Shown here in pieces: positions 36,654-63,584 of a DNA stretch of 64,000 bases. Under the pieces are notes generated by a model. It was not told where the DNA came from. It saw nothing but the letters and a program-made list of their open reading frames with translations, and searched no databases. A program made the translations under genes and the position numbers. The first letter of the stretch is position 1; every line of letters begins with the position of its first letter. The stretch is from a virus: the IMG/VR virus record IMGVR_UViG_3300034103_001746, positions 62,001 through 126,000 of that record; one strand, 5' to 3'.

Positions 36654-37025
36654 TCAGAACGCTACGGTTTCGTTCTGTTCGGACTTATTCTTCTTTGATA
36701 GCTTGGTAATCTTGGAGAAGTTGTTTACGCGTACCTTTAGAGTACTATGCTTTACTCCATCCTTTTCCCAAGAATCATTACGCAATGAGCCTTCAACTAG
36801 CACTAGATCGCCCTTCTTAAAAGAATCAGCGATGATCTCAGCGCCTGTGTCCCAGGCTTCACATGAAACGAATGTTGTTACCTTATCCTTTTCACCATTA
36901 GACTTGGTATACTCACGAGAAACAGCAACTGTAAAGTTAACAACAGTAGTCTGCCTTCCGCCAGTGTTAACAACACGAACTTCTGGATCACGAGCTAAAT
37001 TTCCTCTTAAGATATTAATATTCAT
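36654..37025 (-). CDS. ssb: Single-stranded DNA-binding protein
   Basis: A bacterial-type SSB of 123 residues from ATG 37025, which has a perfect AAGGAG (37033-37038) seven bases upstream; an in-frame TTG two codons earlier is less likely. The OB fold is clear: ILRGNLARDPEVR at the start, FTVAVSREY, FVSCEAWDTGAEIIADSFKK, and LVLVEGSLRNDSWEKDGVK. The acidic C-terminal tip of cellular SSBs (DDDIPF) is replaced by a basic then neutral tail ending ETVAF, so its partner contacts may differ. It covers single-stranded DNA at the replication fork. It has its own promoter and terminator and can be made in larger amounts than its neighbours. Confidence 0.95.
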   Translation of the reverse strand: MNINILRGNLARDPEVRVVNTGGRQTTVVNFTVAVSREYTKSNGEKDKVTTFVSCEAWDTGAEIIADSFKKGDLVLVEGSLRNDSWEKDGVKHSTLKVRVNNFSKITKLSKKNKSEQNETVAF

Positions 37026-37063
37026 ATTCAAACTCCTTGATGTGAAAAACCAAATTACAAACT

Positions 37064-37091
37064 ATTATAGAAGGTCTCTGATCGGTGTCAA
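37064..37091 (-). promoter_or_regulatory. Consensus sigma70-type promoter for ssb
   Basis: On the leftward strand TTGACA (37091-37086) and TATAAT (37069-37064) are both perfect hexamers, 16 bases apart. The expected start of transcription is near 37057, giving a leader of about 30 bases with AAGGAG before the ssb ATG. The -35 box overlaps the TGA stop of the polymerase C-terminal gene. It suggests recognition by the host housekeeping sigma factor. Confidence 0.85.
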
Positions 37092-38713
37092 GATTTTGCG
37101 ATGTAAGCCTTTTCCACTATGAGCGAATCCCCGGTCTTTGACCTATTACCTTTCACTATGATAACATTGCTTCCAAACAACAAGTTTCTATAGCTTCTGT
37201 ATTGCTCTGGAAAAAATACAACAGAATCTAACACACCAGAACCATCTGTTAATGTTACAAATGCCATCTCTAAACCGGGATTCTTTCCTGTTTTGGTTTT
37301 GGTAACACTAATATTGTCTACCTCTCCACATAATATGATATTATCTTTATTGAGACTATTTTTAAATTCTTTACAAGTTGTATTAGTCATACTAATATCA
37401 TACATATCAACCTTGGAACACGTTATACTACAACCGAGCGTTTCTTCCTCTGTATCCGCTATCCATTCTGGATTATCTTCTAAAGCATATGGAGGTCTCT
37501 TTAAAGTATTAAGTAAGTTTTGTACTACAGTTACTCTGTTTTTATTGAGTTTGCCTATTTTCATTAATCCTATAAAAGCATCTTCTAAATTAGAATAAGA
37601 ATATATATTTGTTAATATCGTTCCGATTTCTTTCTTTGTCAATTCATTTATTAAACTCAATTCAAACAACATAGAGTTTCTGGTCTTTTTTAAAAAAGAC
37701 AAGGCCCCGCTCTGAATTAAAGATTTTGCTGCTGTAGAATTAATGTCTGATAGTATCATTAAAGCTGTTTGAATCCAGTTCAATTTATTTAAATCTATTT
37801 GCTTACTAGATATAATATTATTTAGTTTTTCATATACAGCATTTCCAAATCCCTTGATATCTGTTAAGCCAAAATAAATTTGATTATTTTTTAAGATAAA
37901 TAACTTGTTCAGATTACGAATGTCTGGGGTGCTAACAGTTATATCCATCTCGCTAGCATTTTGTACTAATTCTTTAATTTCTGCTTTTGGATCAATTTTA
38001 TCTTTAGCAAATCGTAAATAAGATGCGAAAAATATTTTTGGGAAATGCGATTTGGTATACGCTGATAAATATGCATTAATAGCATAGCTAACAGCATGTG
38101 ACTTATTAAAAGAATATCTTTGAGACTTTTCAATCCAACCAAAGATCTGCTCTGCCTCATCTTCTGTGACTAAATTTAGATTTTTAGCACCCAATAAAAA
38201 TTTTGATTTAACTTTAGCCATTTCTTCTGGCTTTTTCTTTCCAATAGCTTTTCTTAACATATCGGCTTCTTGTAGATTAAAACCAGCGATAGTTTTAGCG
38301 ATCTCCATCGCTTGTTCCTGATAAATCATTTCGCCATATGTTGTTTTCAAAATGGGTTCTAGAGATGGATGAAAATTATCTATAGTTTCTTGTCCATTTT
38401 TTTTATCTATATAGTGATTAGTCACACTCTTTCCATCACGTATAGCCTCTAAGCATCCGGGTCTAAGAATACTGATTAGGGCAGATAATTCTTCAATATT
38501 GGAAGGTTTTAATTTTTTAGCAATAGATCTTCCTAGTCTAGACTCCAACTGAAAACAACCTTTTGTGTTTCCATCAGATATTAAATCCCATGTTTTATAA
38601 CATTCCAAATTGATAGTTTCAATACGGGGATCAAAGGACAATTTCATATCCTCTCCTTCGCCCGAAATAATATTAAAAGAACATCCGCACGGATATTGAA
38701 ATTTTTTAGACAT
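37088..38713 (-). CDS. dnaE: DNA polymerase III alpha subunit, C-terminal part (fingers to OB fold)
   Basis: A 541-residue protein matching the second half of bacterial DnaE. After a short cysteine-bearing leader (YPCGCSF, residues 7-13) it carries the conserved run GCFQLES, SALISILRPG, YGEMIYQEQAMEIAKTIAGF, ADMLRKAIGKKKPEEM and YSFNKSHAVSYAINAYLSAY, all fingers-domain signatures. Helix-hairpin-helix-like KGFGNAVYEKL and a C-terminal OB fold (TKTGKNPGLEMAFVTLTDGSG) follow. The protein ends directly after the OB fold, so the tau-binding tail is absent. The catalytic aspartates are in the partner protein at 39582-41453, so the two must assemble. Its ATG overlaps the exonuclease stop by 8 bases. 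Confidence 0.9.
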   Translation of the reverse strand: MSKKFQYPCGCSFNIISGEGEDMKLSFDPRIETINLECYKTWDLISDGNTKGCFQLESRLGRSIAKKLKPSNIEELSALISILRPGCLEAIRDGKSVTNHYIDKKNGQETIDNFHPSLEPILKTTYGEMIYQEQAMEIAKTIAGFNLQEADMLRKAIGKKKPEEMAKVKSKFLLGAKNLNLVTEDEAEQIFGWIEKSQRYSFNKSHAVSYAINAYLSAYTKSHFPKIFFASYLRFAKDKIDPKAEIKELVQNASEMDITVSTPDIRNLNKLFILKNNQIYFGLTDIKGFGNAVYEKLNNIISSKQIDLNKLNWIQTALMILSDINSTAAKSLIQSGALSFLKKTRNSMLFELSLINELTKKEIGTILTNIYSYSNLEDAFIGLMKIGKLNKNRVTVVQNLLNTLKRPPYALEDNPEWIADTEEETLGCSITCSKVDMYDISMTNTTCKEFKNSLNKDNIILCGEVDNISVTKTKTGKNPGLEMAFVTLTDGSGVLDSVVFFPEQYRSYRNLLFGSNVIIVKGNRSKTGDSLIVEKAYIAKS

Positions 38714-39401
38714 TGCCTGAAAAAGAATCCTTAAACTTAATTTTTTGAGCCAAATTTCTGTGTAGTTTTAGAAACCTAATAAGAATTTCTGCACAATCTT
38801 GTACGTCTTTTAGAGCGTCGTGAGCGCCTTCTTTCGATAATCCAACATAATCCCTCACAGAATCAAGAGTATAGCTCTTTAAGTCATTATTGTATTCAAA
38901 CCAATAAAAAATTAAATTCATTATATCAACTACGTCTCTTGGGAAAAAGACATTAGAGGTACCTTCTTTATTTGTATTTCCATATTTACCACTAAGCCTA
39001 TCTATAATTTTGAGATCAAATCTATTGATATTATATCCAGCAGCAATTGGGGCTGTAAATTGACTCTTTTTAGAAGACCTAGTATGATACATATCTAGAT
39101 AATTTACAAACAGTTTCCAAGATTGTTCTTGAGAAGGGTAGTTTTTCCATTGGCTTAATATATCGTCTTTAGAACAACTTTTAACTTTTGCATGAAAATC
39201 CAGAATGTCTGTGGTATAAGTATAGTTATCATCATTCGCCAAAACTTCCGGCTTAAAGAAAATATTAAATTCGGATTTTGGTATAACCTCTAATTTGATC
39301 GGGTCGATCATGACAGCAGCTATTTGTACAGGACTGCATTGCTTAGGATCGGATCCATCTGTTTCAAAATCGAATACGCAAATTTTGTTATAATTAATCA
39401 T
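38706..39401 (-). CDS. DnaQ-like 3'-5' proofreading exonuclease
   Basis: A 231-residue DEDDh exonuclease with all motifs: Exo I VFDFETDG (D10, E12), Exo II GYNINRFDLKII (about residue 120), and Exo III HDALKDVQDCAEI (about residue 205) with the catalytic His and Asp. Usual length for the catalytic domain is about 180, so some insertions are present, for example around residues 60-110. It should serve as the epsilon-like proofreading subunit of the phage polymerase. The gene lies between the two halves of the alpha subunit and overlaps both the small upstream gene and the downstream polymerase half by 8 bases, so their translation is probably coupled. Confidence 0.88.
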   Translation of the reverse strand: MINYNKICVFDFETDGSDPKQCSPVQIAAVMIDPIKLEVIPKSEFNIFFKPEVLANDDNYTYTTDILDFHAKVKSCSKDDILSQWKNYPSQEQSWKLFVNYLDMYHTRSSKKSQFTAPIAAGYNINRFDLKIIDRLSGKYGNTNKEGTSNVFFPRDVVDIMNLIFYWFEYNNDLKSYTLDSVRDYVGLSKEGAHDALKDVQDCAEILIRFLKLHRNLAQKIKFKDSFSGNV

Positions 39402-39576
39402 TAACTTCTACTTCTGTAATTGGTATGACTTGAATTTTTGTGTTACTATCATTAGCTTGTGATGCATTATTAACATGGCAACAACTAACTCTTTCATCAG
39501 GTATCTTCACATATTCGATACCGTTTAGAGTAAATTTGTCACCAACCTGAACATCAATAAACTTTTTTAAAGACAT
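39394..39576 (-). CDS. Small protein between polymerase and exonuclease genes
   Basis: A protein of 60 residues from ATG 39576, which has AGGTGA five bases upstream; a GTG at 39585 that overlaps the polymerase stop is an alternative start. The sequence pattern KFIDVQVGDKFTLNGIEYVKI followed by SCCHVNNA and a hydrophobic C-terminal strand recurs in small phage and bacterial proteins of unknown function, as far as I recall. It looks like a compact beta fold with a conserved Cys-Cys pair. Sitting inside the polymerase gene set, it may help assemble the split enzyme, but nothing in the sequence proves it. Confidence 0.6.
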   Translation of the reverse strand: MSLKKFIDVQVGDKFTLNGIEYVKIPDERVSCCHVNNASQANDSNTKIQVIPITEVEVND

Positions 39577-39581
39577 ATTAA

Positions 39582-41453
39582 TCACCTATCTCCTAGAATA
39601 TCTTGAATTGTCATAATTTTATCCAACATTGCTACTCCTAATATATCAAATTTAATAATACCAATTGATTCTAAATCTTGCATTTCCATTCCCGCTATTA
39701 ATTGCTTATTCTTAGAGTCATAAACCATTGGACAGGCTTCGTTCAATGGTAATGCACTGATAGCAATACCGGCCGCGTGTTTGGATTGATTCGATTTAGT
39801 ACCCTCTAATCTAATAGCTTGTTCGAAGCGTTTGGCAAGTGGTCCTTGTAGTTCATTTTTTTCATCAATAAAGCACCACTCTTTGAGTTTGTCCGGATTA
39901 TTCTCCAAAGCCCATCTAATAATAGACGCTTCTCCGGTTTCTTCTTTCATTTCTTGTAAATCGTCTGCTATTTTGGCTTCGTCCGGAATATTTTTAGTAA
40001 TTTTATTCATTTCATCAAAAGAAATATTGCCATATACTCTTAATACGTCCTTCAAGGCTCCTCGACCCTTAATAGTATTAAATGTAATCATTTGAGAAAC
40101 TTTATCGTGACCATATTTGTTTTTAATATATTCAATAATAGTTTCTCTCTTATTGATCGGTACGTCCACATCAATATCTGGCATGGATATATGGTCTTTT
40201 GAGTTACGACCAGCATTATAAAATCGATCAAACATTAGATTATATTTCATCGGATCAATACTGGTAATACCAATAAGATAAGATACTAAACAACCGGCAG
40301 CACTACCTCTACCCGGACCCGGAAGCCAAGAGTTATGTCTTACATAGTTAACAATATCTTGTACTATCAAAAAGTAGCTACTAAGTCCAGCTCCTTGTAG
40401 AACTTCTAGTTCATATTTAATTCTATCTACATATTGTTGTTGATCGTCTTTATTAATAGTGTTTGCTATTTTGTCTCTCCAGCCATCTCTACACAGTTGT
40501 CTTAGATATTCGTCTGGATTATATCCATCAGGACAAGCAAACGGAGGAAGCCTAGGCTTACTCAAAACATTATATTCTTCACACAAACCAGCAACAAAAT
40601 TGGTATTTTCTATTTCTTCTTCTGTATGCAGACTATTCATTTCTTCTTGTGACAACAAATGAAAGTTATCAGAAGTAAAAAAACAAGAAAGAGGAACTTC
40701 TTCGTCATTGCTAATTTTTCTACTAATTTCTGGAAATGTTGTCTTTAAATTGTTACACAGTAGGATTCTTTGGTCATTAGCATCTTCTTTACGACAATAA
40801 TGAGCATCTGGTGTGCAAACCACTTTAGTATTAGTGAGTTTTCCCAATTCTCTGACCACACCGGTTAAATCTTTTTGGATCGGGGTGTTGTTCATATCCA
40901 TTAACTGAGATTCTAAAAAGAAATTATCTTTACCAAAGATATCTTTCAATATACCTATTTGCTCTAGTCCTACATTTTTCCAATCCTTAATTAATGCGTT
41001 ATTTTGAACTATCTTGTCCGCTAATACAGAGCCTAAATGACCACAAATGCCTATAATGTCGCCATCGCAAAATCTAGCAACATGATCTAGACTTAATCTG
41101 GGTTTATGATAATAAAAATCTGGCCTATTAGATTCAGACACCAACTGAATAAGTTTATTCCAACCCTTTAAGTTTTTTGCCAAAACAAGAAAATGACTTA
41201 AGTCTTTATTAGACTTGTCTTGTATTGTGGGGTCTTGATCACAAACATAAATCTCGCAACCTAGTATGGGTTTGATGCCCTTAGACTTCATTTCTGTATA
41301 AAACTTAATAGCCCCAGCTATATTTCCGTGATCTGTTAAGGCACAAGCAGATGCCCCAATTTCTTGACATCTTTCTGATATTTGTGATGGTTTTGATAGT
41401 CCGTCCAACAAACTAAACATTGAGTGACAATGTAAAGGTATATAATTCCTCAT
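39582..41453 (-). CDS. dnaE: DNA polymerase III alpha subunit, N-terminal part (PHP and palm)
   Basis: A 623-residue protein matching the first half of DnaE. The PHP domain opens with HCHSMFSLLDG (H8, H10) and continues with ALTDHGNIAGA and TPDAHYCRKEDAND. The palm has GPGRGSAAGCLVSYLIGIT, PDIDVDVP (about residues 423-430, two catalytic Asp) and IKFDILG (about residue 602, third catalytic Asp). The protein stops about 20 residues later, before the fingers domain, which is encoded separately at 37088-38713. Synthesis therefore needs both products. It follows the RecB-like exonuclease with an ATGA overlap. There is no intein-like sequence at its end. Confidence 0.93.
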   Translation of the reverse strand: MRNYIPLHCHSMFSLLDGLSKPSQISERCQEIGASACALTDHGNIAGAIKFYTEMKSKGIKPILGCEIYVCDQDPTIQDKSNKDLSHFLVLAKNLKGWNKLIQLVSESNRPDFYYHKPRLSLDHVARFCDGDIIGICGHLGSVLADKIVQNNALIKDWKNVGLEQIGILKDIFGKDNFFLESQLMDMNNTPIQKDLTGVVRELGKLTNTKVVCTPDAHYCRKEDANDQRILLCNNLKTTFPEISRKISNDEEVPLSCFFTSDNFHLLSQEEMNSLHTEEEIENTNFVAGLCEEYNVLSKPRLPPFACPDGYNPDEYLRQLCRDGWRDKIANTINKDDQQQYVDRIKYELEVLQGAGLSSYFLIVQDIVNYVRHNSWLPGPGRGSAAGCLVSYLIGITSIDPMKYNLMFDRFYNAGRNSKDHISMPDIDVDVPINKRETIIEYIKNKYGHDKVSQMITFNTIKGRGALKDVLRVYGNISFDEMNKITKNIPDEAKIADDLQEMKEETGEASIIRWALENNPDKLKEWCFIDEKNELQGPLAKRFEQAIRLEGTKSNQSKHAAGIAISALPLNEACPMVYDSKNKQLIAGMEMQDLESIGIIKFDILGVAMLDKIMTIQDILGDR

Positions 41454-42448
41454 TCTACGCTTCCTGGTGCTTTGTACTTACCAACAGTATAGCCGGGAGT
41501 CGTGTACTCGTCAACAACGTTTTTTATACCTTTCATCTCTATATCGTGTCGAATTTGTTCACATTTAGTCATAAATTTATCTTTTTGTGTTACCTGACCA
41601 TCTCTATATTCTATTATTGGTAACAACTTAGAGTTTTCAAAAGTTGTTTTTCCAAAATGGCATAATTTAGTACATTTCCATGTTTTGGTTAGTTTCGGGA
41701 TTTGAGCATTTTTAATTGCTTCAAATTTTTTACGAAGCATTTCTTCTGTAGATAATAAATCATCTTTATCATAGCAAATAGTAAATGGTCCACCATCATT
41801 AATAAAATTAATAGAGACCATTACATGATCAATATCAGGATATAACTGACTCACAGCATAATGATATATTTTAAGCTGAGGATCATTTTGTAACTTCTCA
41901 TGAGTTTTTTCCTCACCAGTTGCCCAATCTAATCTTCTTCCTGTTTTCCAGTCTATAATTTCTATAGTATTATTATCTACTTTTGTTATTAAGTCTATTG
42001 TACCTTTAATTGCTAAATTACCCTCTATAATTTCTCCTTGATGATTATATTTAAATTTTGCCCACTCTCTTTTGATTTCTATATCAAAATGTTGTTCGGG
42101 CTGTAGGATATTTCTATTTCTAGGATCAAACATTCCATTATTACTGTCTAATGCCTTATGTACCCAAGCGTGACAATCTTTATAGTCCTTTAGTTCCCAT
42201 GCGTGGTGAGTAAATTGGCTAGTATAGTAATTATAGACTTTCTCAATAATAGTGTTCAAATTATATTTGTTTGTACTAACTTTTCCAATAACATCGTCTA
42301 TTATGTCTTTTTCTTTATTTTGGTCGGCCAATTTGATACAGGCTAGAATTTCTAGAACTTTATGTACTATTGTTCCTTTGTCTGCTTTTTTATTCGAGGG
42401 TGATCTCATTCCAAGAACATACTCTATAAAATATTGCTGTTCGCACAT
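41450..42448 (-). CDS. RecB/Cas4-like PD-(D/E)XK exonuclease
   Basis: At least 332 residues from the only in-frame ATG (42448). Motifs in order: CEQQYFIEYVLGMRSP, GTIVHKVLE (motif I His), IKGTIDLI (Asp), IEIIDWKTGR (D-x-K) and QLKIYHYAV (motif Q), all typical of RecB-family nucleases such as Cas4 and AddB C-termini. Cysteines at the N-terminus and in WKCTKLCHFGK could hold an iron-sulfur cluster, but a full four-cysteine set is not certain. The homologous region seems to extend upstream of the ATG (LRSSSYGTHSM), where only ATT or ATA could start, so the true start is probably near 42493-42485. It likely processes DNA ends for replication or recombination. Confidence 0.8.
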   Translation of the reverse strand: MCEQQYFIEYVLGMRSPSNKKADKGTIVHKVLEILACIKLADQNKEKDIIDDVIGKVSTNKYNLNTIIEKVYNYYTSQFTHHAWELKDYKDCHAWVHKALDSNNGMFDPRNRNILQPEQHFDIEIKREWAKFKYNHQGEIIEGNLAIKGTIDLITKVDNNTIEIIDWKTGRRLDWATGEEKTHEKLQNDPQLKIYHYAVSQLYPDIDHVMVSINFINDGGPFTICYDKDDLLSTEEMLRKKFEAIKNAQIPKLTKTWKCTKLCHFGKTTFENSKLLPIIEYRDGQVTQKDKFMTKCEQIRHDIEMKGIKNVVDEYTTPGYTVGKYKAPGSVE

Positions 42449-42486
42449 AGAGTGTGTGCCATAGGAACTACTTCTAAGGTATGTAA

Positions 42487-43107
42487 TTATAATGGTAGTA
42501 TTCCCTCGGTTTTAAGAAAATGAAAGATTTGATTATTTTTATCATCTAGATTTAGATTTTGATTATCTACAACTAGACTAAATTTAGACCAATCATAATT
42601 ATTTTTATCTAAAGCAACTTCAGCTTCTGCATTGGAGTTAAATAGATCTCTGGTTAGTCTAATAACAAATCCTCCAACATTGAGTATTCCATCAACCTCA
42701 TTAGGGAATCTATTGTCTAATACTATTGCTAGATCGTATTGTTCTCTATCAATTTTATCTAAAGTGGCATCAACCCATATATTATTTTTGATTTTTCTAA
42801 ATATTTTAGTGCCAACAACTTCCATGACTTCTCTGGCAGTCATGTATTCATCTCTGTTACAGTCTATGCCGGGTATGTCTTTCCACTTTACAGAAGTTAA
42901 AGTATTTTTTTGCTCGTCTGTACCATAGCATTGTTCATGTGTTAAACCCAATAAATTAATACATATGTCTTGTTTTAATGGATCAGCAAAGCTATATAGT
43001 TTATAACTGATTGGTAAATTATAAGTTTTGATAAGATGTTCTATATATTCTCCTCCAGTACTTTTACCAGATTGCTTGCGTCCAGAAAAGGCTAAAATTT
43101 TTGTCAT
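42487..43107 (-). CDS. Deoxynucleoside monophosphate kinase (T4 gp1-like)
   Basis: A 206-residue P-loop kinase. GRKQSGKST (residues 9-17) is the Walker A loop, YSFADPLKQDI (about residue 38) is the dNMP-binding start, YMTAREVMEVVGTKIFR is the middle helix and LDNRFPNEVDGI (about residue 130) is the conserved acidic motif of phage dNMP kinases. It phosphorylates dNMPs so that phage DNA can be made, together with the ribonucleotide reductase and dCMP deaminase in this window. It begins within the primase stop (ATGA overlap) and ends where the exonuclease reading frame opens. Confidence 0.85.
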   Translation of the reverse strand: MTKILAFSGRKQSGKSTGGEYIEHLIKTYNLPISYKLYSFADPLKQDICINLLGLTHEQCYGTDEQKNTLTSVKWKDIPGIDCNRDEYMTAREVMEVVGTKIFRKIKNNIWVDATLDKIDREQYDLAIVLDNRFPNEVDGILNVGGFVIRLTRDLFNSNAEAEVALDKNNYDWSKFSLVVDNQNLNLDDKNNQIFHFLKTEGILPL

Positions 43108-44264
43108 ATAATTTTTCCCATATATTCCACGATCTCCTTTTTAATTTCGTCCGGTGTCATTTCTGCTATGTCTGGCTTAGATATTTGTGGTATAAATATC
43201 CTATAAGTGTTTTGACACTTATTTTTAATTTGTTCCGCAGCTTTTTTGCCCGCTTCGTCATTATCTGTTAATATTACTATATTCATTGCTCCAGAAGAAT
43301 CAAGTATTATTTTCTGTCTATCGCTCAACGAAGAACCAAACATGGCTACGCTATTATGTATATGATTTTCTTCTAACTTCCATACATTTCCTGGGCTTTC
43401 TACAATAATAACTATACCAGAATCTAGTATCTGTTTTTTTGCAAACCAGAAGTTATATAAATAATTTTGGCTTTTAAATTCATGGTTGTGCTTCCACTTT
43501 GAATATTTCCATTTTTCTTCATCAGTAGGACAATTGTCTATCGGATTATGATGAGATTTACACTTGTCACATTTTTCAAAAATACTTCTTCCTGAACACC
43601 CAACAAGATATTTGTGGTCGTGATCATATATAGGAGCTACGGCTCTATTAAACATTTCTTTTCCTTGTTTATCACATACGCCCACATCATACTTGTCTAA
43701 GATTTCTGGAGAAAAGCCCCTATCAATAAAATATTGTGCTGGTATGGTCAAAGACTTTCTTACAGAGTCTCTAGAGACTAAGGCAGATGCTAAAGGGGTT
43801 GGCTCCGATTTCATATGGCCCACCAGACTAGTGAAAAGTCTTTTGTCTCTATCTGCTTTAGATATTTTAATTTGTTTTAAGTCTTTTTTGAGAAAAGTTA
43901 AACAATAATCTAATGCCTCATCAAAAGTGCAAGTAGAATCTCCCTGTTTTTGCCAGCCGTGTTTTTTATTGGACAAAACCCCTCTTACAAATCCAATGAT
44001 AGAACCCTTAAAACACTCTTCACAACCGTGTGTTCTACATTTCCAGTTACCCCTATAGTTATCTCCCTCATAATATATATTAAGAGCTGAACTATTATCC
44101 CCGTCATGAATAGGACAGGCCATAGATAACATCTTGGGTCTAAGATTATATTCTAATCCTAGATTATCCATTAATGATTCTATATTATCGCAAAGATCGT
44201 CGCAAACTACTTTAAGCTTGGCTTGATCAATTGAACGGGATTTCTTCTGCATGGCTGTTTTCAT
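43104..44264 (-). CDS. DnaG-type primase
   Basis: A 386-residue primase with an N-terminal zinc-binding domain (C50-P-x-H53 ... C76-x2-H79, with further cysteines at 81 and 84), an RNA-polymerase-like core, and a TOPRIM domain: VIIVESPGNVWKLEE (about residue 290, catalytic Glu) and ILTDNDEAGKKAAEQ (about residue 330, D-x-D), then SKPDIAEMTPDE. A four-cysteine insert (CDKCKSHHNPIDNC) lies before the TOPRIM. It would lay RNA primers with the DnaB-like helicase, whose gene overlaps the start by 38 bases. At 386 residues it lacks the C-terminal helicase-binding domain of cellular DnaG. Confidence 0.88.
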   Translation of the reverse strand: MKTAMQKKSRSIDQAKLKVVCDDLCDNIESLMDNLGLEYNLRPKMLSMACPIHDGDNSSALNIYYEGDNYRGNWKCRTHGCEECFKGSIIGFVRGVLSNKKHGWQKQGDSTCTFDEALDYCLTFLKKDLKQIKISKADRDKRLFTSLVGHMKSEPTPLASALVSRDSVRKSLTIPAQYFIDRGFSPEILDKYDVGVCDKQGKEMFNRAVAPIYDHDHKYLVGCSGRSIFEKCDKCKSHHNPIDNCPTDEEKWKYSKWKHNHEFKSQNYLYNFWFAKKQILDSGIVIIVESPGNVWKLEENHIHNSVAMFGSSLSDRQKIILDSSGAMNIVILTDNDEAGKKAAEQIKNKCQNTYRIFIPQISKPDIAEMTPDEIKKEIVEYMGKII

Positions 44265-45687
44265 CGTCTACTATAAATCCTTGATCTGATGTTGATTTGT
44301 TATTTACTATTTCAAGTCTAGTCTTACCTTCTGTAATTTTAGCGCACCAGCCCTTCATATGACAATTAATATAGTCATTGTCATCTAGACCTCCTCCGTG
44401 TCTACTAATAAGAGGTAAAAGCTTACGATTTCCGTTGGTCGGCCCGTCCTCCGCTATTTCCTCGTCACTCTTTCTTTTAAAGATCGTAAAATTACTACAT
44501 AGCCATATTATACGATCAGATCCACTCGCTGAGTCTGTGCTTTCTTTTGTTATGCCGTCTCTATTTAATTGTATAAATGCCACAATAGGAACTTTATATC
44601 TTACAGCAAAATTATGTAGACTTGTCATCATAAAACCTAGTACTTGGTATTCTTTCATATCTTGACTAATACCCGCACTATCCATAAGTTTAAGATAATC
44701 ATAAAAAATTACGCATTCTTTTGCTGTTCCGTCATCATTCAAACCAACCTCTTTTACTAGCCATCGCCTCATAATTGCCAACTGGTCTTCGAATGGTTTA
44801 CCAGCAATACTTTTATGATATAGTTTCATCTGTTTTAGTTCTGAAACCGCTTGTGATATTTTTGTTTTAGAATCTGCTGTTTCGGCGAACTTTCCGGTTT
44901 CAATATGATTAATTTCTATCTCTGTCATCATCGCTAAAATTCTATGGATATGATCCTCTTTATTCATTTCTGTATCCATATTCAATACCGGTATACCAAG
45001 CTTTGCAATATTTTTACCCATATTGTCAGATAGCAATGTTTTACCGGTTTTTGGTCTGGCTCCTATTACATTAATAGTTCCTTTTCTTAAACCGCCTCCG
45101 ATAGCTTGGTCATAAATAGGAAACCCGGTTGGTATACCTACTTGATCTATTTTATTTTCTTCAAGAGCTTTAATATAGTCATCAATATTAGAGCCAATAA
45201 CTTCCGGGCTTCCATCAGCATCATTTAACAAAGAAGTAAAATTAAAAATGCTATCTTCTGCTAAACCTATAATAGAAGATATCGGTTCACTACCCGTTAC
45301 ATCTAGAATTTTTTCTTGAGCTAGTTCTAGTTGTTGTCTTAATAAACGAGCTATTTCTAGTTTGCGTATTTTTGCTGCAAATCTACGAACGTTTTCCAAA
45401 CTAACTGGAAAATCCATTATAGCCCTTAGATGCTGTGCCTCTTCTTTTTTAGCAAGAACATGACTCAGATTTAATTCTTGTGCAATAGAGTATATTGAGG
45501 CTATGTCTATTTTAGCCTTTGTTTCTGATTCACACAACTTTTTAACGCATTTAAAAATTAAAGCGTTACTATCAATAGTAAAAGATGATTCTTGGACGAT
45601 ATCAGCAACATCCAAAAAAGCATCTTCGCCATAATTACAAATACCCGCCAATACGGCTCTTTCTGCCGAAGGATCACTCAAAATCAT
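44227..45687 (-). CDS. dnaB: DnaB-like replicative helicase
   Basis: A 486-residue replicative helicase. Residues 1-100 are the helical N-terminal domain (SDPSAERAVLAGICNYG, the usual opening). The RecA-like motor has GIPTGFPIYDQAIGGGLRKG, Walker A GARPKTGKT (about residues 209-217), VLNMDTEM, the Walker B region VIFYDYLKLMD and FIQLNRDG. The C-terminal part has GSDRIIWLC and arginine-containing LISRHGGG. It unwinds DNA as a hexamer ahead of the polymerase and pairs with the primase encoded next. The ATG at 45687 overlaps nothing and lies ten bases after the preceding stop. Confidence 0.92.
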   Translation of the reverse strand: MILSDPSAERAVLAGICNYGEDAFLDVADIVQESSFTIDSNALIFKCVKKLCESETKAKIDIASIYSIAQELNLSHVLAKKEEAQHLRAIMDFPVSLENVRRFAAKIRKLEIARLLRQQLELAQEKILDVTGSEPISSIIGLAEDSIFNFTSLLNDADGSPEVIGSNIDDYIKALEENKIDQVGIPTGFPIYDQAIGGGLRKGTINVIGARPKTGKTLLSDNMGKNIAKLGIPVLNMDTEMNKEDHIHRILAMMTEIEINHIETGKFAETADSKTKISQAVSELKQMKLYHKSIAGKPFEDQLAIMRRWLVKEVGLNDDGTAKECVIFYDYLKLMDSAGISQDMKEYQVLGFMMTSLHNFAVRYKVPIVAFIQLNRDGITKESTDSASGSDRIIWLCSNFTIFKRKSDEEIAEDGPTNGNRKLLPLISRHGGGLDDNDYINCHMKGWCAKITEGKTRLEIVNNKSTSDQGFIVDDENSHAEEIPFN

Positions 45688-46093: not shown

Positions 46094-46577
46094 GTTTTAA
46101 AGCCTTTATTTTTTGTATAGAAATGAGAATATCAGATAAATTTTTAATACCATTTGCTAAATATGACAACCTATCGCTTCTTTGTTTAGCATATTTTTTA
46201 ATTTTGTTTAATGATTGAGCCCTATCGTTGTGCTTAATCGCCTGATAGGCTTTTTCTACATAGCCATAACCCTTATAATTATTTATTTCGTCTGCGATAA
46301 CTTCTTTAATAGTCTCTTCTGCCCAATTATATCTAGCCAATTCTCTATTAATGGTTCGTTGCACATGAAAAGAAAATTGTCCTAATCTATATGATATTTG
46401 AGCACAATCCTCTGGTGTTAATTTTTCTAGTTCATCTCGACTCATCGTTAAATAACCATTTAATTCAGTTTCTGATAAAACAGTAGAATTATATGTAGAC
46501 AATCCTAGACTATTTTCATATTGGTCTAAAACTGTATCCCATTCATTTAATTCTTCTTTAGCATTTTTGGTTGTCAT
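46086..46577 (-). CDS. Unknown helical protein of the replication block
   Basis: A 163-residue, almost entirely helical protein with no membrane segment or cysteine motif. The centre holds ISYRLGQFSFHVQRTINREL and a following charged helix (KEVIADEINNYKGYGYVEKA), then a basic region (KKYAKQRSDRLSYLANGI). It sits between a PD-(D/E)XK nuclease and a zinc-ribbon gene, two genes upstream of the helicase. It could be an accessory factor of helicase or recombinase, but no homologue comes to mind. Confidence 0.45.
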   Translation of the reverse strand: MTTKNAKEELNEWDTVLDQYENSLGLSTYNSTVLSETELNGYLTMSRDELEKLTPEDCAQISYRLGQFSFHVQRTINRELARYNWAEETIKEVIADEINNYKGYGYVEKAYQAIKHNDRAQSLNKIKKYAKQRSDRLSYLANGIKNLSDILISIQKIKALKHG

Positions 46578-46977
46578 ATATTATTCTATTTTTCCATTGG
46601 TCAATATCTTCATGAAATGGTAACTCAATATATTTAATATTATTAATATCGCACCATTCTTGTTTTTCTCTATCTCTTTTTTGTGCTTTTAAAAAGTTTA
46701 ACATATTCGAGTGATAGAAAGCTATAAACTTATAATGTTGTTCTCCATGAACCTCAAAACAAATCTTTTTTAATGGTAAGTAAAAGTCTAAATAAAGAAT
46801 TTCATTTTTTCTAAGTTGTATCGGTACTTCTTCTAAGATTTGTAGTGTTGGATATGATTGACTAATTAAGTTTCTAGCATTTAGATGATATGATGATTTA
46901 TTGGTTATTTTACCTTTAGACATGTTTCCAGTTAGTAGCCAATTATGATTATTTCCATCTAAATCTTTTATCAGCAT
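46558..46977 (-). CDS. Small PD-(D/E)XK/Vsr-like endonuclease
   Basis: A 139-residue protein with the core of a Vsr/DUF559-type nuclease: E49/E50, LYLDFYLP (D64), CFEVHGEQHYKF (E75, E79, H81) and RDREKQEWCDINNIKYIELP, the typical final helix and strand. It resembles the C-terminal half of the endonuclease at 29830-30627 but lacks its HTH. It starts inside the end of the recA-like gene (7-base overlap). It may be a junction-resolving or repair enzyme of the recombination machinery, or a minimal homing nuclease. Confidence 0.6.
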   Translation of the reverse strand: MLIKDLDGNNHNWLLTGNMSKGKITNKSSYHLNARNLISQSYPTLQILEEVPIQLRKNEILYLDFYLPLKKICFEVHGEQHYKFIAFYHSNMLNFLKAQKRDREKQEWCDINNIKYIELPFHEDIDQWKNRIIYDNQKC

Positions 46978-49889: not shown

Positions 49890-50471
49890 TTATATATATG
49901 AACTAGGAAGATATGTCATCCACTCTTCAGGGATGTCTGTCCTTATCTTAAGGAGATATGAGGACAAAGGCAAGTATTTAACACTTTTTACAGGTTCTCT
50001 TGGCAAATTTTTAAGAGGCATATTGGCCTGTTTTGGTGTTCTATTACCTTTCTTTCTATTACAATGGACACATGCTGTAACAATATTAAACCATGTTGTT
50101 GGAGATGTATCTAAATTTTTCCATAATGATTTTGGGATAACATGATCATATGTTAAATTATTGATATCTTGTTTAATCCCACAATATTGACATGTATAAT
50201 TGTCTCTAATAAATATATTTCTTCTAGAAAAATTTACTCTTTGATTATGCACTCTAAAATATTTGGATGTTCTTGCCACCGCTGGTATGGGAAACTTTTT
50301 TCCATTCACGCCAGCAATATAATCATTTTTATAGAAATCAATAATTTCTATACCGACATTATTATCCTCTTCATGTTTAATAGACCATATTAAAGCTCTT
50401 TTCCATCCAATAACAGTTAATGGAGAGAAATCTGCATTTAAAACTAAACATCTACTGTTTTGTGTTCTCAT
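49890..50471 (-). CDS. HNH endonuclease
   Basis: Read from ATG 50471 (193 residues), because the family opens with the phrase that follows immediately, CLVLNADFSPLTVIGWKRAL; a longer TTG-start form would add 13 residues. The HNH domain is clear at about residues 87-150: FIRDNYTCQYCG, LTYDHVIPKS (D-H of the active site), then TACVHCNRKKGNRTP, with two CxxC zinc pairs. Widespread in phages and bacteria; it may act in DNA packaging, restriction or repair. The start overlaps the end of phoH by 20 bases. Confidence 0.8.
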   Translation of the reverse strand: MRTQNSRCLVLNADFSPLTVIGWKRALIWSIKHEEDNNVGIEIIDFYKNDYIAGVNGKKFPIPAVARTSKYFRVHNQRVNFSRRNIFIRDNYTCQYCGIKQDINNLTYDHVIPKSLWKNLDTSPTTWFNIVTACVHCNRKKGNRTPKQANMPLKNLPREPVKSVKYLPLSSYLLKIRTDIPEEWMTYLPSSYI

Positions 50472-51186
50472 TTTGTTCAAAGTTATCCAATCTAGATAAA
50501 ATTTTTCCAATAATGGGATTTCTCACAATATCAGAAAAATCTAGCCTTGATATACCTATTCCTTCTAAATTTTCTAATACGTTGGTCATGGTATAAAAAC
50601 CACCCCGCATATGCCTAATTAAGTCTGATTGACTAACATCGCCAGTTAATACCATCTTACTATCTGTTCCTAATCTTGTTAGCAACATTTTAATTTGATC
50701 ATAAGAAGCATTTTGACATTCATCAGCCACAATAAAAGCATTATGAAAATTACGTCCACGCATAAGTCCTAAAGGAACTATTTCTATTCTATTATTCAGT
50801 TTAAGAGTAGCAAACTGTGCGGATGAAATAAAATAATTTACTTCATCTAATAATGGAAGCAGATATGGGTGTAATTTTTCCTCTGCTGTACCTGGAAGAT
50901 AACCAATCTTTTCTCCAGATTCAACAACAGGTCTAGTGATAATAATTTTTTTAACTTTTTCGTCAAGCAGATATTCTAATGCCATACCTATTGCGATATG
51001 GGTTTTACCGCTACCTGCGACCCCATGACAAAATGTTATAGAATTTTCTGCTATAGTTCGAATATATTCTTTCTGATTTTCACTCCTTGGCTTTAATCGA
51101 TTTCGATATGTCTGTGTTACTGGTCCAATCTCATTGGCTAGGTCTATAACTTTAGACCTTTTCTTAGAATTTTTATTTTTTCTCAA
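50452..51186 (-). CDS. phoH: PhoH-like ATPase
   Basis: A 244-residue P-loop protein starting at TTG 51186, with AAAGGG six bases upstream and no ATG available before the conserved domain. Walker A is HGVAGSGKTH (residues 54-63), followed by IIITRPVVESGEKIGYLPG, AFIVADECQNAS (Walker B with DE) and MVLTGDVSQSDL, all standard in PhoH. This family is an RNA-helicase-like ATPase frequent in phages; its role in infection is unclear. It lies directly downstream of the ribonucleotide reductase gene. Confidence 0.88.
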   Translation of the reverse strand: MRKNKNSKKRSKVIDLANEIGPVTQTYRNRLKPRSENQKEYIRTIAENSITFCHGVAGSGKTHIAIGMALEYLLDEKVKKIIITRPVVESGEKIGYLPGTAEEKLHPYLLPLLDEVNYFISSAQFATLKLNNRIEIVPLGLMRGRNFHNAFIVADECQNASYDQIKMLLTRLGTDSKMVLTGDVSQSDLIRHMRGGFYTMTNVLENLEGIGISRLDFSDIVRNPIIGKILSRLDNFEQNENTKQ

Positions 51187-61974: not shown

Positions 61975-63584
61975 TATGTATTACCGTCAAAAAATAATTT
62001 AAGTTTGGGCTCATATGTATTTTCTCTAGCCTTATAAAATTGTGTATAATCTAAATCCTGTTTGGGGAATCCTTCTGTCATAGATAAAGCAAACACCATT
62101 CCCATAGCATGTTGTTTAGTAGCACATCCCCATGGAGAACACGCCGTATCATCCACACACGGATCATTATTAGGGTCGTTTGGATTGGACACAGAAGTTT
62201 TTCTTCTACAATTAACTTTATCGACTCTATATAAATTTAACATACATTGTAGATGACTCTCTGTTACTAAAAATGATCCGTCAGGAATTGGGCCCCAAGA
62301 AGGATGTCCTCCGTCGTTCCATTTTCCCCAACTATTTGCTAATAAGTATACACACTCAGTATAATCTACTTTTCTATCATCATACCCAATAATAGCATAA
62401 GAATGATACCATATTCTATCTGGATATGAAACACCACCAGAGTCTCGGATATTTGGAAAACCAACATTAGTCATTAGTATTACTCCATAACCATTATATA
62501 TTAAATCTTTAATAGACTGTAATACATTCGATGTGTTTGTGAACTGAATTATTGATATAGTTCTTACTCTATCAATAGTTTCTACTGGTTTTCCTAAATA
62601 ATCAACATTTTTTGATTTTTCATATTTATTAGTTTTATAGTCATAATTATTAATTGTTTGAAAATATTTTAAAAGTATATCTCCGGGACAGCTATAAAAA
62701 TTAGGACCACTATTATTAATTAAATTAACATATCCACCATATGATTTTCGTTTTAATATCCCTATGTGCCTAAGTGGAAAATCTTCATTTGTTACATTGG
62801 TTGTATCGGTTGTTAATTGAGTATATTCCCAATAACCATAACGAGTACCAGTAATATCTCCACAACACCAGTTCATTTTTTCTGCGCATGATCCGCTAGT
62901 ACAACAATCTTGTTGGTCTGGTGTTATATCTTCCGGATTAGATGTACAAGCTCCGCATGGTGTGCATTCTCTAAATCCAGATTTTTCATTCTGTTTACAT
63001 TCAAATGTTGCTCCTAACGCAGATCCTTCCTTTTTAGGATCAAATTTTGGTAAACAATCTAAATCTCCACATCCTGTTCCTCTATTCATAGAGTCACTTT
63101 CGGGAACTAGGTCTGGTCCTAAGAGCATTAAACAGTCTGTTATATAATTTTGACCAAAATATTGTAAATACTCTGTTGCTCCTCTGTGTTCCCAAGAGGA
63201 TCTAGTGCCAGAAGCCTCAACATAACACGCTCTCATAACATCGCAAGCATTACGAATAGCGTGAGACGTACCACTTTTAATGTCGGGTTGAATCTCTGAA
63301 AAAGCTTCAACATCTATTCTTTGTAAAAACCTAAATGGCAAAGCTAATTTTCTTGATCCTGTATTTAGAATACCGAATGGATCACTATCGCTTGGCTCTA
63401 TTTGTGTATATGGAGCTTTATTAAAACAAGGATATTTTAGTTGTTTTAAAAAATTACTTAATCTAGGTAAATCGTATGGAGTTCCGCGTCCAACATTTTG
63501 TTCAGGACGCCCAACAAAATCTATTACACCCATTTCGCACGGGGATGTGGTGTATTCGTAATAAAGCTCTTTGGGCGTTAACAT
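61974..63584 (-). CDS. Papain-fold (C1A-like) protein with cysteine-rich insert
   Basis: A 536-residue protein. The C-terminal half has the papain-family His and Asn motifs: WYHSYAIIGYDDR (about residue 395, catalytic His) and VYLLANSWGKWNDGG (about residue 416, catalytic Asn). In the N-terminal half GTSHAIRNACDVM (about residue 104) aligns best with the GxCxxF active-site helix of such enzymes, with Ser where Cys is expected. Between them lies a cysteine-rich insert (about residues 175-245, CGDLDC, CTPCGAC, CCTSGSC, CCGD). It may be a pseudo-protease or have an unusual nucleophile. It lies between a small membrane protein and the solenoid repeat protein. Confidence 0.6.
   Translation of the reverse strand: MLTPKELYYEYTTSPCEMGVIDFVGRPEQNVGRGTPYDLPRLSNFLKQLKYPCFNKAPYTQIEPSDSDPFGILNTGSRKLALPFRFLQRIDVEAFSEIQPDIKSGTSHAIRNACDVMRACYVEASGTRSSWEHRGATEYLQYFGQNYITDCLMLLGPDLVPESDSMNRGTGCGDLDCLPKFDPKKEGSALGATFECKQNEKSGFRECTPCGACTSNPEDITPDQQDCCTSGSCAEKMNWCCGDITGTRYGYWEYTQLTTDTTNVTNEDFPLRHIGILKRKSYGGYVNLINNSGPNFYSCPGDILLKYFQTINNYDYKTNKYEKSKNVDYLGKPVETIDRVRTISIIQFTNTSNVLQSIKDLIYNGYGVILMTNVGFPNIRDSGGVSYPDRIWYHSYAIIGYDDRKVDYTECVYLLANSWGKWNDGGHPSWGPIPDGSFLVTESHLQCMLNLYRVDKVNCRRKTSVSNPNDPNNDPCVDDTACSPWGCATKQHAMGMVFALSMTEGFPKQDLDYTQFYKARENTYEPKLKLFFDGNT

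Follow-up and report, generated by a model that had tools for sequence, protein, structure and literature searches.

This study concerns a DNA polymerase III alpha subunit of the DnaE type that a virus appears to encode in two separate genes. The genes lie in a window of 64,000 nucleotides, the whole stretch of DNA analyzed here, which corresponds to positions 62,001 to 126,000 of IMG/VR record IMGVR_UViG_3300034103_001746, a metagenomic contig of 149,532 bp. Four open reading frames (ORFs), all on the minus strand, occupy positions 37088-41453: the gene of the N chain (39582-41453, 623 aa), a small gene (39394-39585, 63 aa from a GTG start or 60 aa from an alternative ATG at 39576 that adjoins an AGGAG), an exonuclease gene (38706-39401, 231 aa), and the gene of the C chain (37088-38713, 541 aa). 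Successive stops and starts overlap by 4 nt between N and the small gene, by 8 nt between the small gene and the exonuclease, and by 8 nt between the exonuclease and C. An original prediction, made from the letters alone, had described just such a layout, with a 60-residue protein and an exonuclease between the two halves and overlapping stops and starts throughout, and the ORFs were recovered exactly where it had placed them.

Domain content of the two chains and site of the split

The N chain opens with an unbroken PHP domain (40905-41435, minus strand; Pfam, residues 7-183, E-value 1.3e-35), followed by the palm and thumb (39636-40511, minus strand; PF07733, residues 315-606), for which the DNA_pol3_alpha profile is matched over its whole length (1-260 of 260, 1.7e-72). 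The three catalytic aspartates, D426, D428, and D603, are invariant across relatives, and the chain ends in a helix soon after the third of them. All nine PHP ligands are present (H8, H10, D17, H42, E67, H87, H139, D216, and H218), at positions corresponding to those of Mycobacterium tuberculosis (Mtb) DnaE1, so that the PHP domain of N may still bind metal. The set extends past the Pfam boundary of the domain, and its seventh member is a histidine, compared with a cysteine in bacteria. The AlphaFold model of N alone has a predicted local distance difference test score (pLDDT) of 91.5 and a predicted template modeling score (pTM) of 0.90, and its last helix spans residues 608-622. The best Foldseek matches of this model are the DnaE proteins of Mtb, Thermus, and E. 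coli (E=4e-47; template modeling score on the query, TMq, 0.72-0.77).

The C chain carries the remaining core domains, also on the minus strand: the fingers (38180-38626, residues 30-178; Pfam DNA_pol3_finger PF17657, 4e-46), a helix-hairpin-helix (HhH) domain (37673-37942, residues 258-347; Pfam HHH_6, 6e-9), and an OB-fold (37127-37336, residues 460-529), the last of which has a weak Pfam match just under the cut-off (8e-6) together with beta strands in the model. The FNKSH motif falls at residues 202-206, and no tau-binding C-terminal domain was seen in the chain. Modeled alone, C reaches a pLDDT of 90.2 and a pTM of 0.80, and again the DnaE proteins of Mtb, Thermus, and E. coli are its best Foldseek matches (E=2e-23, TMq 0.5-0.7). 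Ahead of the fingers lies an N-terminal extension of about 30 residues (residues 1-30; 38624-38713, minus strand) with a conserved CGC-x-F hairpin, which is absent from the fused DnaE proteins compared. The extension is kept in the split clade described below, a few members lacking it as called, perhaps through the choice of start codon, and the hairpin is a natural candidate for a docking element. The division of domains thus agrees with what had been proposed for the two products, PHP and palm with all three catalytic aspartates on one, and fingers, HhH, and OB on the other.

Alignment to solved DnaE structures places the break between residues ~565 and ~586 of E. coli DnaE, that is, between palm and fingers. 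It lies ~200 residues ahead of the FNKSH motif and hence is not at the cyanobacterial intein site, which sits at that motif. No intein sequence was found at either broken end; both ends consist of conserved, extein-type sequence with its own stop and start, in line with the earlier suggestion of a split that precedes the cyanobacterial one and involves no intein. Rfam gave no intron match in the locus, where a single sub-threshold match to a small RNA was the only hit, and none in the relatives with insertions. The original prediction had also named a full-length dnaE elsewhere in the genome as evidence that would tell against it. The source record holds one palm match and one fingers match and no full-length dnaE, and no A- or B-family polymerase was found in it (PF00136, for the B family, is unmatched).

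The exonuclease encoded between the two halves matches RNase_T in Pfam (1e-10) and phrog_192 in PHROGs. Its DxE, D, and HxxxxD motifs are present, with D11, E13, D129, H194, and D199 invariant in relatives, and a C-terminal tail, KFKxSF, is conserved. It is an enzyme of the DEDDh/DnaQ fold, and to this extent the claim that the phage encodes a DnaQ-like exonuclease of its own holds. The small protein has conserved SCC and VEV motifs, matches nothing in Pfam, PHROGs, or INPHARED, and shows no profile link to the exonuclease. We considered it as a conserved subunit and rejected this, as deeper relatives either lack it or have another gene in its place; it is dispensable.

Conservation of the split in relatives

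The same arrangement recurs at 227 loci with N, exonuclease, and C, which comprise 145 distinct sequences, some contigs being counted more than once among the loci. N and C are separate at every one of these loci, with the exonuclease between them, and none is fused; the two halves lie on different ORFs in 147 of 147 loci of a first set and in 80 of 80 of a deeper set, which was reached via a contig 42-48% identical. A single polypeptide, which is usual but not defining in characterized DnaE apart from the intein-split precursors, was therefore seen at none of them, which makes the phage enzyme a variant and not a typical representative of the DnaE type. Fourteen of 16 large relative contigs (138-244 kb) have exactly one palm gene, of ~630 codons and never fused; in one of the others the palm gene is in two pieces by insertion, and in another it is riddled with frame errors. 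Both halves were found in every relative with enough sequence, and the loss of one half in close relatives, the other observation named in advance as counter-evidence, was accordingly not encountered.

Two qualifications concern individual records. At locus L335, on the 195-kb contig G008, the N gene contains many frameshifts and stops, which are probably sequencing errors and not biology. Two contigs labeled as Flavobacteriales and Lokiarchaeota metagenome-assembled genomes (L181 and L182) are phage contigs of the split clade, a probable case of binning contamination.

A tree was built from 36 split representatives, 13 fused phage enzymes, 25 bacterial DnaE proteins, and the split enzyme of phage phiT1 (see below). 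All 36 split representatives, whose identities range from 100% to 41-48%, form one clade with a Shimodaira-Hasegawa-like approximate likelihood ratio test (SH-aLRT) support of 100 and a stem of 1.35 changes per column. A single fission in this lineage, not reversed anywhere in the sample, is hence the most likely history. Most of the pairs that allow an estimate give a ratio of nonsynonymous to synonymous substitution rates (dN/dS) of ~0.02-0.05 for N, the exonuclease, and C; for the small protein, the ratio is looser in most pairs, ~0.1-0.3. These sequence comparisons indicate that the two-chain split is old, fixed, and strongly selected.

The distance matrix of N correlates with those of C and the exonuclease at 0.72-0.73 and with that of the primase at 0.73, compared with 0.31-0.53 for the helicase, nuclease, kinase, or single-stranded DNA-binding protein (SSB). 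The similarity among the matrices of N, C, exonuclease, and primase (r ~0.7) fits a co-inherited replication core.

Proposed assembly of the two chains and alternative explanations

Because the split is old, fixed, and strongly selected, it is very likely that N and C function jointly as a single polymerase. We hold with considerable confidence that the two ORFs encode two subunits of a single C-family (DnaE-like) replicative polymerase, whose fission has become fixed and whose halves assemble. The proposal of an alpha subunit made from two non-spliced chains is well supported: the halves are intact, their active-site residues are conserved, they are separate ORFs in 227 of 227 loci, and no intein is present.

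We infer the following course of events. In an ancestral phage, dnaE would have undergone a single break in the palm-fingers linker, after which both pieces kept or acquired a start and a stop of their own; this state would have become fixed before the large phage clade diverged. A single, translationally coupled mRNA run would now yield both N and C. N, with PHP, palm, thumb, and all catalytic metal ligands, and C, with fingers, HhH, and OB, would assemble non-covalently into an active, DnaE-shaped alpha subunit, as their joint conservation and the precedent of split T4-like polymerases (see below) suggest. The DEDDh exonuclease, translated between the two, would supply proofreading, probably by binding to the PHP domain in the manner of epsilon. 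Neither the record nor 16 relatives matched the beta clamp profile PF02767, and 20 further proteins scanned included no clamp, T4-type clamps not having been searched directly; a host clamp or an unrecognized one is therefore likely to be used. The notion of a replisome of the phage's own is thus right in part only.

Several points weigh against this reading. The halves were modeled singly only, and the N-C correlation is not above that of N with the primase, which makes it a sign of co-inheritance and not of contact. By profile, the exonuclease is similar to ExoI and further DEDDh nucleases as well, so that the epsilon-like role included in the original prediction, though plausible, is not singled out. 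The records are uncultured contigs, and completeness is established for none of them.

A stronger form of the two-subunit explanation, not exclusive of it, would make the exonuclease an obligate structural bridge in a three-chain core. In all relatives, including those with inserted genes, the exonuclease gene does lie between the two halves, and the KFKxSF tail is conserved. Gene position need not mean structure, however: an exonuclease gene adjoins dnaE in phage JG024 too, and several relatives lack the small protein, the other candidate for a bridge. We regard such a bridge as unlikely. It would also be a speculative step to assume an obligate core of N, exonuclease, and C in which the exonuclease, with the CGC hairpin, joins palm to fingers, making proofreading and polymerization physically inseparable, while mobile elements (a split intein, an HNH-linked stop insertion, and LAGLIDADG genes, described below) serially attack the gene and break it up step by step without loss of function.

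Far less probable is that one or both halves are decaying or have been repurposed, with a host or unrecognized polymerase copying the DNA. The missing clamp gene would suit this, and phages can use host Pol III, but the catalytic residues are invariant, the low dN/dS holds for N and C alike, the N-C pairing is fixed across a deep clade, and a full replication run with helicase, primase, and SSB adjoins the halves. Less probable still is a covalent reunion of the chains by split intein, RNA trans-splicing, ribosomal frameshifting, or bypass. Cyanobacterial DnaE is rejoined by an intein, and some relatives of the phage bear a split intein elsewhere in N; at the palm/fingers break itself, however, neither terminus shows intein sequence, the conserved end of N and start of C have their own stop and start, the locus has no Rfam intron, and ~0.7-5 kb with one or more genes separate the halves. 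Chance is excluded by the profile E-values, the 227 relatives of the same layout, and dN/dS values of ~0.02-0.05. The metagenomic origin of the contig might be cited for a sequencing or assembly artifact or a very recent insertion, but the probability of these is negligible: many samples yielded the same structure, in 145 distinct sequences with identities as low as ~42%.

Insertions, neighboring genes, and other split replicases

The N gene of the window is free of intein, stop, and LAGLIDADG insertions, all of which occur in relatives. A split intein lies in the palm motif, inserted at GPGRG^S (GPGRG^C...VHN^S, N residue 383/384), in L019, L036, L037, L039, L054, and L328; in those read, a free-standing endonuclease-like ORF stands between its halves (the fractured-gene type), and the N part matches Intein_splicing in Pfam. 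At 21 of 157 loci, the start of the PHP domain is cut after ..PLHVHS (HxHS) by a stop within an insert of 8-11 nt (CATGTCCATTCYTARGTG...), and the frame resumes at (H/M)(Y/F)SLLDG in another frame, +1 or -1 by type (L010-L015, L035-L037, L039, L054, L057, L058, L078, L081, L094-L097, L129, and L137). This trait is scattered over the tree with seven changes, at least six of them forced, and the type C loci (L078 and L081) have no in-frame ATG or GTG restart. Termination-reinitiation and ribosomal bypassing, the latter as in T4 gene 60, are candidate ways past the stop. In L035 (4400-5290) and L036 (3180-4080), the nuclease gene and N are separated by an HNH-like homing-endonuclease ORF just upstream of the HxHS interruption; the ORF is named by its sequence pattern (Pfam gave no HNH match), and L039 retains a remnant of it. 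Near the catalytic PDIDVD (N residue ~425), N is interrupted by ~1.1 kb in L308, L309, L311, L312, L314, L316, and L317; the insert of L308 contains a LAGLIDADG gene and gave no intron hit in Rfam. With split intein, HxHS stop, and LAGLIDADG insertions all at hand, the N gene is a frequent target of insertions.

Other insertions fall between the genes. A 229-aa HNH-like ORF lies between N and the small protein in L031 (2096-2810) and L032, and 1-3.6 kb of other genes lie between the exonuclease and C in L056 and L138 (L056, 4350-8000) and in L140 (10766-11798), the polymerase halves being unaffected. These exonuclease-C inserts comprise ThyX-like, methyltransferase-like, DUF1559 pilin-like, and tRNA genes.

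The polymerase genes belong to a longer replication run. Upstream on the same strand, spanning 41450-45687 (minus strand), are genes for a PD-(D/E)XK nuclease (41450-42448), a deoxynucleoside monophosphate (dNMP) kinase (42487-43107), a Toprim primase (43104-44264), and a DnaB-like helicase (44227-45687). The SSB gene (36654-37031, minus strand) is always the next gene after C, and near it are a promoter-like consensus site (37091-37064, minus strand) and a terminator-like hairpin (36631-36614, minus strand). The order helicase, primase, dNMP kinase, nuclease, N, (small protein), exonuclease, C, SSB is kept in relatives. Elsewhere in the window, two further homing/HNH endonuclease genes (46558-46977 and 49890-50510) stand near UvsX-like and PhoH genes, and positions 125500-145000 of the record hold phage-borne genes for IMP dehydrogenase, a Clp protease, a trypsin-like protease, and the actin-like Volactin. 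A DUF1552 (HXXSHH) gene lies at 129554-130939 of the source record; DUF1552 and the DUF1559 of the L056 insert are families known mainly from Planctomycetota and relatives, which may hint at the phylum of the host.

Compared with the single-chain DnaE of phages and bacteria, the two-chain enzyme is a direct homolog with the same domain order and active-site residues, with ~34% identity for N and ~31% for C to the best fused phage enzymes. It differs in its two chains, its CGC hairpin on C, the tau-binding domain not seen, and the histidine for cysteine in the PHP site. The C-family replicases with solved structures that we found are all one chain. A close likeness is Rossellomorea phage phiT1, whose DnaE also breaks at the palm/fingers junction (gp20/gp19/gp18, 573+49+469 aa) and has a small ORF between the halves; it has no exonuclease between the halves and no CGC extension, and in the tree it groups elsewhere, with a fused Moorella phage enzyme. 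We read it as a second, apparently independent break at this junction. PhiT1 as the source of the clade's split was rejected on its position, albeit on a long branch, and a scan of viral contigs with its N half found nothing.

Other breaks fall elsewhere. DnaE is encoded in two ORFs broken after PHP in the Microbacterium EF phages, for which two genes have been noted (PMC7302621), and in Gordonia phage Suzy. Bacillus phage Jayan has two ORFs with a small ORF between and the break within the palm, its close relative PS1 being intact, and Bacillus phage KLEB27-3 has an HNH gene between two ORFs broken within the fingers. In the T4-like Aeromonas phages 25 and 44RR, the split products gp43A and gp43B co-purify and polymerize (PMC2988022). 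These resemble the present system only in working as a replicase in two chains: they are of the B family, linked to a seg endonuclease or an untranslated insert, and sporadic, not known clade-wide. The split-intein DnaE of cyanobacteria likewise comes from two genes, but its break precedes FNKSH and is mended by protein trans-splicing, whereas the phage split is earlier and without an intein. Gram-positive PolC also has a DEDDh exonuclease within its polymerase region, there inserted in the PHP domain as part of one chain; in the phage it is a free protein encoded between the palm and fingers genes.

Phage DnaE has thus been split several times, and split phage replicases are already known. 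In the open-access literature we found no paper on this clade or on a DnaE split between palm and fingers, and with subscription papers outside that scope an earlier description is possible. The arrangement, which the original prediction had called unusual, is so only relative to cultured phages: it is the norm throughout a large clade of uncultured ones, and partial precedents exist. Phage DnaE clearly tends to break apart, homing endonucleases being a likely cause, and the original fission in the split clade may have had the same origin.

As this split illustrates, the fission of a gene can become fixed throughout a viral lineage. An ancient, natural break that parts the palm, where metal is bound, from the fingers, where nucleotide is bound, would mean that a non-covalent joint at the moving hinge is tolerated by the enzyme and may even be put to use. 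The naturally separate halves could serve structural studies and the design of conditional split polymerases, and could help to show how a proofreading exonuclease is positioned. Where annotation or a marker-gene survey presupposes a full-length dnaE, these phages will be mis-called.

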